Source of the DNA: Beroe ovata
Taxonomy: Eukaryota; Ctenophora; Nuda; Beroida; Beroidae
DNA: 60,501 bases
Direction: 5' to 3'
Assembly (NCBI GenBank): GCA_946803715.1
Contig: CAMPET010000164.1
Coordinates: forward strand, 1 to 60,501
The translations under genes and the position numbers were made by a program. Below the pieces are notes generated by a model. The model was not told the origin of the DNA and made no database searches. It was given only the letters and a program-made list of their open reading frames with translations. Below, one piece after another: positions 33,787 through 50,123 of this stretch (positions are counted from its first letter, which is position 1; each line of letters opens with the position of its first letter).

Positions 33787-35879
33787 TATGTTGATCTCTA
33801 CCTAAAGTTGAGAGTGTTAGTCAAGCAAAGGGCTAAAGGCAAAACTCGGTCATAAGACTCAACATAAACTGAATGTATTTCAATATCAGAGCCTCAAGGA
33901 GGCTACATTGGACCAAGGTCTGTAGAACTGCCCTAATCTACATGCAATGTCCAGTACATGGTGAAGAAAAATATTGAATCTGGCAATCATGATTCACTTT
34001 CACAGCTCACTCCTTGTGAAAACGGCTGATGTCAAAATTTTTACTGATAAGTTGCAACTTTCTTCTCTGAAGATGTTGCAATCAATCAGGGAGATTCTTT
34101 AGAGACATACATTTGTTATTGGTAAACCAACTTCCATACAAAAGTGATGTGTATTTAGTATAAGAGAAAAGTCAGTTAAATGCATTATATTGGACTGATG
34201 CAGATTATTCTTGTACACCACTCATCTTGGTGTGATTCATTTTGAACTTGCTTCTCAGTACAATTGATTCACCAAAAAAGATATTGATTCTTGTTGGTGT
34301 TCAGAAGAGTTGTGGAGAAGAGTGATGCAGATTCATGTCTTGAAATGAAAAATAGTATGCAGAATATTGTTCTTATGGAGCACTGTGTAGGTACTGAACA
34401 AGCAAACATTTGCTGAAAGCAAAAGAATCAATATTTCTAATTTGGTGTCTCAAATTTGTGACATAGGAACTATTTTCAAAAATTTCAATCAATGTCTATT
34501 CAGTATTCATAGTGTATCCTTGATCACATCAAAGACATAACGATGGATATTTCCTTTACATCTTTAGATCTTTGCTCTAGACAAGTTGTGATAGTGCAAT
34601 GTCTCTATCTTGCCAAACAGCAAACAACGGCAAACAACACGGCAACAACGGCAAACAACATGGCATGTGGTACTAAACAAGGAATCAAAGCCATCTGAAA
34701 TTCTAACAGTGCACAGACAAAGGACCATTCTTATTTGTTTGAATTTGAATCATGAATGCTCACTGCTCAACTTAGTTCTGATATCATTTCAACATTTTCA
34801 TCATTTATTATTTAACAAAATGCAATGATTTATGATCATATCACTACGAATTGGAGATGAATGAATTATCCATTTCTCACATGCCGTGGCCACTGGCCGT
34901 GATGCTCATGTTCGATGATCAGGCATAGCATTCATGCGCGCGTGCAAAAAAGGTGGCCATAATCCATATATATCCTGACATGACCTGTTTTTCGCGCGCG
35001 CGCCTTTATCGAAGGCCGCGGCGCGAAATTGGAACAGGCCTTTGATGAAGCTGAAGGCGCGCGCAAAAAACAGAGGTCCCGGTCATATAAAATCTGACAA
35101 TTCTGAAAATTCATTAAATAAAAAGTCCAAACCACGGAGACGCGCGGCGCGGGTACAATTTCTGGATGATTGGTTGTAGGATTTTACCCTACCGTCGGTG
35201 CGCGCGATTTTCCTTGCCAGCTGGGATAAAATCCCGCCATGGCAAGGACAGGGTGAAATCCTACAAGATGATTGACGGATGTTATCGATGAAGGCGCGAA
35301 GAAACAGTGGACAGATGACATGCGGCAACTGGATAAAAGTGCAGTTGCGCATGCTGGCCATAATTGAGCCATGCAAACGTCGTGGACACTGCTGACTGCT
35401 TTAGTTTGTAGTTATGATAAGTCACACGAAGAAATAATGATTCAACATTAACATGAAAATACTTCACACAAAATGACAAAAATATTATAACTTCATGGGT
35501 CATAAATCTAGACTAAAGGTGGTTAGAACACTATGGACTCAGATTGAGAGCTTCAAGATCTATTGACCATATTTATCGAAGTGTCAAAACCGCGTGGTAG
35601 GCGTCCATGAAAGCTAAATATAAACGGACCAAAGTTTGTGCCTCTTAAATTTCAAAGAATCATGCAGGAGGTGAAAAGTCGTTCCAAATCCATATTTCCG
35701 CGATATAATGGTTAGCTTTCAAACTCTATGGTCTGATTATCCATGAAATCGAAATATCATATTCTACGACATAACAAAGGGAACAAATTACATTTTTTCT
35801 GATTTTCCGTTTATTCTAAAAGTTTTTCTCATGCACTGGCCAGCAGGGAACTGCTTCGTGAACTCGGTATCGGATGTGC
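33787..35879. other. Intergenic region between SNAP-25 and the V-ATPase gene
   Basis: 33787-34920 is AT-rich and should hold the SNAP-25 promoter and 5' UTR; I see no exon. 34930-35330 is GC-rich transposon debris, including a small element with 8-bp target duplications at 35174-35266 and a partial copy of the CAGTGGACAGAT palindrome element near 35280-35330. 35400-35879 is the presumed 3' UTR side of the V-ATPase gene. Confidence 0.55.
35174..35266 (+). mobile_element. Miniature element with TTGTAGGATTT ends and 8-bp target duplication
   Basis: The left end is TTGTAGGATTTTACCCT, and the right end read on the other strand is TTGTAGGATTTCACCCT. GATGATTG stands at 35165-35172 and again at 35267-35274, with one extra G between the left duplication and the element. 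At 93 bp with no coding capacity, it is a non-autonomous DNA element. An 8-bp duplication fits the hAT superfamily. Confidence 0.75.
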
Positions 35880-41435: not shown

Positions 41436-41654
41436 TCGCGGCAGTGCTACATGCTAGCCGAGAATAAGTTTGCGCCGCGCGCGCGAAACAAAATAATTCT
41501 TGACAGGGTCCATCATCAATATAAGGATCGATAAGGTTTTTGGTATCTCAAACTAATTTTTGCGATTTTCATCTCATCAAATCATTTATTTTGTTACCTG
41601 TTTATATAGGTTTTGTTTATTTACTAGGATTTGTTTATATAGGGTTTGTCATTA

Positions 41655-41946
41655 CGCAGCTGCTATTCTGCCTCGTTTGAATCCGCGCACGACGGTACTT
41701 GCGATGCGCCTGCCAGCTTTTATGCTAACCTAACTTTAACCCTAACCTTAACGGTTAGGGTTAGGGTTAGGGTAAAGGTTAGGGGTAGGGTTTGGGTAAG
41801 GGTTAGGGTTAGGGTACTAGGGTTAGGGTTAGGTTAGGGTTAGGTGAGGGTTAGGTTAGGGTTAGGGTTAGGTTAGCATAAAAGCTGGCAGGCGCGTCGC
41901 AAGTACCGTCGTGCGCGGATTCAAACGAGGCAGAATAGCACGAGCC
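41655..41946. mobile_element. Foldback element with long inverted ends, 9-bp target duplication and a telomere-like TTAGGG interior
   Basis: The arms are about 80 bases: the left from CGCAGCTGCTATTCTGCCTC, the right (reverse strand) from GGCTCGTGCTATTCTGCCTC, continuing with the shared CGACGGTACTTGCGA and GCCAGCTTTTATGCTAACC. TTGTCATTA flanks it at 41646-41654 and 41947-41955. Between the arms lie about 130 bases of TTAGGG-type repeats with variants (TTAGGTTAGGG, TAAAGG), preceded by a short CCCTAA-type stretch. It has no coding capacity. Long inverted ends with a 9-bp duplication fit Mutator-like non-autonomous elements. The 49782 copy has the same ends. Confidence 0.88.
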
Positions 41947-42874
41947 TTGTCATTATCATGTTAATCAACTGCGTAATATATTATTATTATTTGTTGTTAT
42001 TGTGTCAGATAATTGAACAATTAACATTGTGGACAGTGATGCCTAGTCAATTGAACCAAACTGTTGACAATAATTTTTAACTTTTGCATGTATGTTTGAC
42101 ACTATAAGCTGTTTTACAAATGTTTTATTCTAGGTGCCCAGATTGTGGTTCTTACTAGTGAAGTCTTGTAGGGATGAGTCTTAAGCGAGTACTGGAGCTG
42201 ATTCATGTTAAAATTACTCAATTCAATTCAATCCAATTCAATGCTGAATTGGCATGATGTGGGTTTAGCTCTTCAAGACTCCAAGTGCTAAGTCCAAGAG
42301 CTGAACTCCAATTGTTTCAGCATCAAAGTTTTCATACAAACAGCAATTATATTTGATTCTTGTAAGCATAGAGACTTGAATTGACAACTTCATACCCTGC
42401 TTTCCTGCAGGGCTCAGGAATCCTAGAATATTCTTCTGGAGATGATATACTAGTTCTCAAGGTGCTACATGAGGGTGTTTCCATAAGGGCGCGTCCATCA
42501 ACTTTTTCCTCTGATGTTTGAAAAGTACCTATTCACTGTTTTCAAAATTAGGCCATCATTGGTCCAGACACCCCAGAATTTCTCCCAAAATTGTCTACCA
42601 TGACCAAAATTATCCCTGAAAGACTTCTTAAATTTAATCCCTGGAAAACCTCTTAAATCTAATCCCTGAAAGAAAGCTTTTGACCCATTCAGACCAGAGG
42701 GTTGGGACTTGGTAATGTGTGATACTACTTCTTGAGCTGTGGTACCATAACAACTTCAAGAGTTGGGGGCTACATCTTGATTTGGTTCACTCTTATCTTT
42801 CAGCAAAACATTATTTTCTTGCCAATAAGCAAGGATTATAATATGTTGTATATATATTGATAACAACCATAGGT
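41947..42874. other. CFAP70 upstream region
   Basis: AT-rich sequence with a run of CAATTCAATT words near 42218-42240. It should contain the CFAP70 promoter. An AG directly before the start ATG (at 42872) leaves room for a 5' UTR exon upstream. No other gene is seen. Confidence 0.5.
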
Positions 42875-49694: not shown

Positions 49695-50123
49695 TTGTCG
49701 GGCGATGCCAGACCGCTGATGCAATTGCAAGCCGCAATGCCTTGTCGGATGTTATCTGTCCACTGTTTCTATATTGCGCAACCCAGCTGCTATTCTGCCT
49801 CGTTTGAATCCGCGCACGNGCGCGGATTCAAACGAGGCAGAATAGCACGAGCCATTGCGCAATGCGCGCGCGCCGCGCGCAAGAAACAGTGGACAGATAA
49901 CATCCGGCAAACGATGCCAGACCTTGTTTGGTGATGCAAGACCGCTGCACTGATGCAAGCCGCGAATAAGTTTGAGCGGCCGCGCGCGCGCAAAACAAAA
50001 TTCTCGACAGGGCCGGGGCTATCATCGATCGACAATGCCAGACCACGACCGCTAAGAACAAGTTTGAGCCACGCGCGCGGAACGAAATTCTCGACAGCTA
50101 CAGGGTCTATCATCAATCGACAA
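49695..50123. mobile_element. Nest of three miniature transposon families
   Basis: The outermost is a TTGTCGGGCGATGCCAGACC element. In it lies a palindrome element (CCGGATGTTATC arms, 49742-49909) whose flanks GCAATGCC and ACGATGCC agree at 6 of 8 positions. In the palindrome's arm lies the foldback copy at 49782-49853. The right side has two successive CTCGACAGGG...CGACAA ends (at 50035 and 50123), so more than one insertion of the first family is present. Confidence 0.7.
49782..49853. mobile_element. Second foldback element copy, 9-bp target duplication, interior lost at a single N
   Basis: Left end CCCAGCTGCTATTCTGCCTC and right end (reverse strand) GGCTCGTGCTATTCTGCCTC match the element at 41655-41946. 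ATTGCGCAA flanks it at 49773-49781 and 49854-49862. The two arms meet at one N (49819) after only 37 bases, so the inner arms and interior are missing, most likely because the palindrome collapsed in assembly. Confidence 0.88.

Follow-up and report, generated by a model that had tools for sequence, protein, structure and literature searches.

A foldback element family with a telomere-like TTAGGG interior in the genome of Beroe ovata

Introduction

Interstitial telomeric repeats are usually taken as the scars of chromosome fusions or of single repair events. In rodents and primates, telomerase-linked insertions are accompanied by deletions and by nucleotides in register with the repeat, and some of them lie within repetitive elements, as is the case for 16 of the 25 primate insertions tabulated in the sections available (PMC2246262). 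The transposition of telomeric repeats has also been named as a possibility, in the accessible part of a review, for repeats that are flanked by mobile elements.

The closest described systems are found among foldback and Mutator-like transposons. According to the accessible sections of one study, target duplications in the MULE superfamily are of 8–11 bp, and its members Rehavkus and Phantom, in both of which minisatellites were noted, have 9-bp and 8–10-bp duplications and inverted ends of up to hundreds of bases (PMC6446971). The Tm1 Mutator/Foldback elements of root-knot nematodes are described, in the portion of the paper available, as having long foldback arms, asymmetric outer motifs of 7 bp that lie external to the inverted repeat, 9-bp duplications and MITE-like members (PMC3169594), and the available text on Xstir of Xenopus describes a MITE-like element linked to tandem or satellite repeats (PMC6947457). 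The family that we describe here, designated FAM1, resembles Rehavkus, Phantom and Tm1 in the traits listed for them and Xstir in its association with an internal tandem repeat. It was recognized in a 60,501-nt stretch of Beroe ovata DNA (contig CAMPET010000164.1), hereafter the window.

Results

The reference element and a second copy in the window

The reference element occupies exactly positions 41655–41946 (292 bp) and is bordered on both sides by a perfect 9-bp target duplication, TTGTCATTA (Table 1), which confirms the first-pass annotation of this site as a mobile foldback element with a TTAGGG interior and a perfect 9-bp duplication. Its inverted arms show 98.5% inverted identity over 68 bp, and the interior consists of a short C-rich stretch on the left followed by a long G-rich one that reaches the right arm. 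Tandem Repeats Finder assigned to positions 41753–41876 a period of 6, with the unit GGTTAG in 21 copies and 80% matches; the inner arms terminate in CTAACCTAAC, and in the right half of the FAM1 interior an 11-bp rhythm (TTAGGGTTAGG) runs alongside the hexamer period. Folded as single-stranded DNA, bases 41656–41946 are predicted to form one stem of ~90 bp with a loop of G-rich telomeric sequence; the fold energy is −112 kcal/mol, against a mean of −36 for shuffled sequences, and was equalled by 0 of 200 shuffles.

The same annotation had placed a second copy at 49782 with a 9-bp duplication of its own, and ATTGCGCAA indeed flanks positions 49782–49853. The N at 49819 marks an assembly gap within the hairpin, and the interior of this copy is therefore unread rather than short. 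Within positions 49760–49900 the second copy seems to be centred in another palindromic repeat, and the target of copy L025 is likewise palindromic; a preference of FAM1 for hairpin targets is possible. The window also holds, at 35175–35265, a 91-bp copy without TTAGGG of the palindromic element MITE2, described below, and genes including those for a Sushi+TSP1 protein and a protein kinase, a content that would fit an animal genome.

Table 1. Coordinates of the FAM1 copies in the window and locations of the FLYWCH+MULE element
Feature	Position	Strand	Remarks
Left target-site duplication TTGTCATTA	41646–41654	no strand	
A end, polar 7-bp tip CGCAGCT	41655–41661	+	outside the inverted repeat
Left inverted arm	41662–41728	+	68-bp inverted match, 98.5%; arm 30-mer found 132 times in the genome
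Inner left arm, degenerate C-rich telomere-like (CTAACC type)	41729–41752	+	pairs with the inner right side
G-rich telomere-like interior	41753–41872	+	mostly hairpin loop; element has 10 TTAGGG hexamers
Right inverted arm	41873–41939	−	68-bp inverted match
B end, polar 7-bp tip	41940–41946	−	GGCTCGT, read inward
Right target-site duplication TTGTCATTA	41947–41955	no strand	
Left target-site duplication ATTGCGCAA, second copy	49773–49781	no strand	
Second copy, A tip CCCAGCT to B tip	49782–49853	+	interior lost at assembly gap
Right target-site duplication ATTGCGCAA, second copy	49854–49862	no strand	
FLYWCH+MULE element, L079 with L101 and L128	G000:C117		
FLYWCH+MULE element, L080 with L102	G000:C343		

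Copy number, ends and target duplications of FAM1

The assembly searched comprises 77.8 Mb in 534 contigs. An arm 30-mer matched it 132 times with up to 3 mismatches, and a B-end pattern 66 times with up to 2 mismatches, from which we estimate about 70 copies of FAM1; the reversed arm 30-mer, used as a chance control, gave 0 matches and the reversed B-end pattern 1. All 66 B ends lie in the window or in examined loci, while arm positions are those among the matches listed (100 of 132), some of the other 32 also falling in examined loci. The A tip is usually C[GC]CAGCT and the B tip GGCTCGT, so that the family has asymmetric 7-bp tips outside the inverted repeat. Two-ended copies (n = 36) span 126–478 bp, too short for the coding sequence of a transposase.

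A perfect 9-bp duplication, within the range given for the MULE superfamily in the available text (PMC6446971), flanks 22 of the 37 two-ended copies of the first set, and these 22 duplications are 80% A+T. Comparison with empty sites backed the 9-bp duplications proposed from the reference element: for 4 of the 22 duplicated copies, the DNA examined contains an empty paralogue with the 9-mer present once (over 35 bases the match has at most 4 mismatches, and in one case the 9-mer differs by 1 base). Among the 15 copies lacking a perfect duplication, five have mirrored flanks; in four, a junction or an end has an N in it or close by; one copy has its right flank in common with another (L061 and L060, over 146 bases); a further one differs by one mismatch, and the other four lack an explanation. 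The mirrored flanks are those of L014, where the mirror extends for 1851 bases with one mismatch, L020, L039, L041 and L077. A palindromic mode of insertion was considered for them and rejected: the symmetry of L020 and L041 breaks off precisely where the assembly has a one-base gap, for which reason we treat both as misassemblies, and L014, L039 and L077 are probably hairpin misassemblies as well.

Dispersed copies with inverted arms, target duplications and empty sites identify FAM1 as a non-autonomous foldback MITE. An arm 25-mer had no exact match in collections of prokaryote and viral contigs, and hence there is no sign in them of a transfer from prokaryotes or viruses.

The telomeric interior is a standard part of the family

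Telomeric hexamers occur in 35 of 39 two-ended copies, that is, the 37 of the first set plus two gap-collapsed ones, with at least three hexamers in 34; the remaining four copies all have an internal N gap. Of 48 ends without a recognized partner, 25 reach two or more hexamers within 300 bases, and the other 23 stop at a gap (19), stop at a contig end (2) or diverge (2); L009 and L063 are readable ends with no telomeric hexamer. Overall, 60 of 62 readable interiors are telomeric, a count in which two unpaired ends may sometimes be one copy.

For a closer comparison we defined a core of 29 copies from the 36 two-ended ones, leaving out L029 and L050 (N), L053 (composite), L022 and L045 (subtype, see below), L039 (nested insertion) and L056 (126-bp deletion form). 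Core copies have a median of 11 TTAGGG hexamers (3–14) and a median length of 292 bp (205–312); all of them share the AACGGTTAGG-type junction and 22 of 29 the GGGTACTA-type landmark. The G strand is directed from A to B in 26 of the 27 AB copies having hexamers, the exception being L053 (G000:C121:21887–22364), a copy of 478 bp in which TTAGGG and CCCTAA arrays stand head to head and a palindromic element is nested. Since the repeat is nearly universal in readable copies, with a common polarity, junction and landmark, we consider it a standard, inherited part of FAM1 rather than a single accident, the alternative that the first-pass annotation had named. In total, about seventy copies seem to carry a short stretch of telomeric repeat.

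Copies L022 and L045 form a short-arm subtype, both with 9-bp duplications and the usual FAM1 right arm. On the left, they have the tip CGCTAGC and just 22–29 bp in common with the FAM1 left arm, followed by ~105–110 bp of other sequence and then by GGTTAGGG repeats; the repeat is thus bounded by a left segment unique to the subtype and by the right arm. In a genome search, the left segment of L022 matched only L022 and L045.

FAM1 and other inverted-repeat families among the genomic TTAGGG tracts

Exact (TTAGGG)4 gave 84 matches with 49 separate starts, or 47 loci after merging two double entries, and 30 of these 47 belong to FAM1 as judged by a distance of less than 330 bp to an arm. Likewise, exact (TTAGGG)6 had 11 matches at 8 loci, six of them FAM1, and both reversed patterns had 0 matches. 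These counts agree with the earlier proposal that a transposon spreads telomeric repeats to internal sites.

Eight of the 17 non-FAM1 (TTAGGG)4 loci sit between inverted sequences of four other families, and representatives of the five families, one from each, showed no mutual similarity when compared with the hexamer masked. FAM2 has two (TTAGGG)4 loci and a third copy, L118, with a longer but interrupted tract; its outer tips are unequal (GGTAAAC and GATTCAC), and a perfect 9-bp duplication, ATTTAGCGG, flanks L109, with 8 shared bases at L118. FAM3 accounts for four loci and has 23 candidate places in the genome; in the part of the family that was read, nine of ten aligned stretches have at least two hexamers and L121 only a remnant. 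FAM4 has one locus (L112) and four further matches. Hexamers occur at the same place in L112 (a run of 5) and in the three relatives read, L125 (2), L126 (2) and L127 (1), which suggests that this tract grew stepwise by slippage. The eighth locus, L111, belongs to MITE2. The remaining nine loci consist either of short tracts embedded in other DNA or of degenerate arrays of greater length. Among the latter, L116 (G000:C472:10450–10566) lies where contig C472 ends, at one end only, in a TTAGGG array with telomere polarity, possibly a true telomere. According to our grouping of loci, there were about five independent origins in inverted-repeat elements against about eight elsewhere, and hairpins other than FAM1 are thus not proven to be enriched in telomeric repeats.

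MITE2, a palindromic element of ~95 bp, provides a comparison of states before and after the gain of a repeat; when up to 2 mismatches are allowed, its ordinary centre has 136 matches genome-wide. At L111 (G000:C252:81540–81730), the ordinary sequence GGCAAGGG-GCGG-ATTGAAAATCG has become GGCAAGGG-(TTAGGG)5-ATTGAAAATCG, an exchange that added 30 bp and removed 4 bp, with AGGG in register and ATTG directly after the repeat. This is a single case against 136 ordinary centres, in a search that took in only tracts with at least four hexamers. The one-step gain of TTAGGG, the deletion and the in-register nucleotides are like those of the rodent and primate telomerase insertions, as described in the available sections (PMC2246262). 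For FAM1 itself we found neither a before/after pair nor an empty form.

Search for a transposase

A search of the genome for the MULE domain (PF10551) returned seven loci, none of them on a contig bearing a B end or, among the matches listed, a FAM1 arm. Six of these loci were examined and had no FAM1 ends, apart from a single B-like match (L082) that, with 5 mismatches, is at chance level. Fourteen further B ends, all of which match the FAM1 tip, were read for an autonomous parent and none was found: 12 stop at a gap, one at a contig end, and L096 reaches telomeric repeats past a nested element. Another interior could hide in the 12 because the gap comes after 24–36 bases. In L096 (G000:C281), the nested element is a MITE2 within the FAM1 arm, with an apparent 9-bp duplication (ATTCTGCCT).

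The genome does contain an element whose open frame of 542 aa includes FLYWCH and MULE domains. Its inverted ends of ~83 bp are 90% alike and fold back with 15-bp repeats; it has unequal tips and a 9–10-bp duplication (Table 1), and contig C343 also includes an empty site for it.

The Mutator-like source put forward in the first-pass annotation is plausible. The 9-bp duplications, the Tm1-like tips and the FLYWCH+MULE frame fit it, but the full-length copy with a MULE-type transposase that was looked for, one with FAM1 ends, was not found in the assembly. Because FAM1 has features in common with Tm1 but no transposase with its ends was found, we speak of Mutator-type foldback behaviour, with membership unproven. 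The autonomous partner may lie in gaps or beyond the assembly.

Discussion

Origin and spread of the telomeric interior

On balance, we lean towards FAM1 being a non-autonomous Mutator-like foldback element, in the style of Tm1 and Phantom, in which telomerase patched a break and transposition amplified the patch. FAM1 copies have moved, as their duplications and empty sites attest, and a transposase from elsewhere would act on the polar ends and leave the 9-bp duplication. In the ancestor of the L022/L045 subtype, a 5′ segment and a 3′ segment would have been joined through TTAGGG repeats, the most likely source of which, by analogy with L111, is telomerase extending a break inside the element, presumably at the centre of a hairpin, before rejoining. 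The right arm would then have been copied to the left side, as the near-perfect inverted copy suggests, giving rise to the long hairpin and the short C-rich stretch. The simplest order is that telomeric joining of the two segments came first and the foldback arose later by this leftward copying, although the opposite order, with the foldback first, is not excluded. Transposition multiplied the telomeric packet to about 70 copies, so that most (TTAGGG)4 tracts in the assembly are transposon cargo. A search with the telomerase profile PF12009 had no match, and its control likewise had no match anywhere. We count against a telomerase patch the stepwise runs of FAM4, the 11-bp rhythm, the failure to find an empty form of FAM1 and the tally of about five origins in inverted-repeat elements against about eight elsewhere.

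It is possible, but in our judgement rather unlikely, that slippage within the foldback expanded an ordinary minisatellite from the seed GGTTAGC at the inner arm, the telomere likeness of the interior being coincidental. Slippage would account for the CTAACCTAAC at the end of the inner arms, the coexistence of 11-bp and 6-bp periods, the spread of the 29 core copies in length (205–312 bp) and hexamer number (3–14), and the FAM4 run, which goes from 2 hexamers in L125 and L126 to 5 in L112; moreover, arms containing tandem repeats are described for Tm1 and other foldback elements in the text available (PMC3169594). It does not account as well for the same hexamer in four other inverted-repeat families with representatives that are dissimilar once it is masked, for the clean 30-bp gain at a 4-bp loss that separates L111 from ordinary copies, or for the 0 matches of reversed (TTAGGG)4 against 84.

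A less probable origin still is capture, by which the element, or a parent of it, first landed in telomeric or subtelomeric DNA and afterwards took flanking repeats between two ends. Mutator-like elements do take up host sequence as Pack-MULEs, as noted in the accessible part of one paper (PMC8277862), and the repeat of L022 and L045 lies between two transposon segments; however, core FAM1 copies contain arms and telomere-like repeats and nothing more, and capture would need the same DNA to have been hit in several families, plus L111. We dismiss as highly improbable an assembly artefact in which telomeric reads were misplaced between hairpin arms, since, although single-N gaps and mirrored flanks indicate that these hairpins are difficult to assemble, there are gap-free copies with 9-bp duplications and the core copies share their junction (29/29) and the GGGTACTA-type landmark (22/29).

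Extending the telomerase-patch reading beyond FAM1, foldback centres in general might repeatedly gain telomeric repeats through breakage and telomerase patching, with patched forms sometimes winning, a generalization that we regard as doubtful. (TTAGGG)4 forms G-quadruplexes, as reported in the accessible text of one study (PMC9071541), and a telomeric loop, as a G-quadruplex former and a potential target of telomere proteins, perhaps aids replication, escape from silencing or avoidance of damage; such a role in FAM1 is speculation. The case links hairpin fragility, telomerase and transposon evolution in a testable way and, if this generalization holds, transposition would make the scars of telomerase repair the main source of interstitial telomeric repeats. 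A transposon, rather than chromosome fusion, seems to explain most of the longer telomere-like tracts at internal sites of this genome, and tract counts used as evidence of fusion would mislead, because FAM1 holds 30 of the 47 loci and the four other families eight.

Comparison with known systems

The component parts of FAM1 are known, and we did not find their combination described in the literature searched. Titles and beginnings of abstracts, drawn from outside subscription papers and Repbase, yielded no MITE or foldback family carrying TTAGGG, and the portions available of work on Oikopleura and nematode chromosomes contain nothing on a transposon family of this kind. The Xstir unit is not known to be telomeric, whereas the internal unit of FAM1 is the animal telomere hexamer. 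Unlike in FAM1, some members of Tm1 encode a Phantom-like transposase and some carry a histone-hairpin motif, as stated in the sections available, and the string "telomer" is absent from the text of the Tm1 paper (PMC3169594); in turn, FAM1 does not have arms built of tandem repeats, and we found none of its members to be coding. No telomeric interior is described for Rehavkus or Phantom in the accessible sections of their description (PMC6446971), in which FAM1, for its part, differs by the absence of any transposase found. With regard to the possibility raised in the accessible part of the review, the repeat of FAM1 is not flanked by mobile elements but lies inside a defined family with target duplications. 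Finally, the rodent and primate insertions, as far as described in the sections available, represent a separate event at each locus (PMC2246262), whereas in FAM1 copies of a transposon have inserted the repeat into about 70 places.
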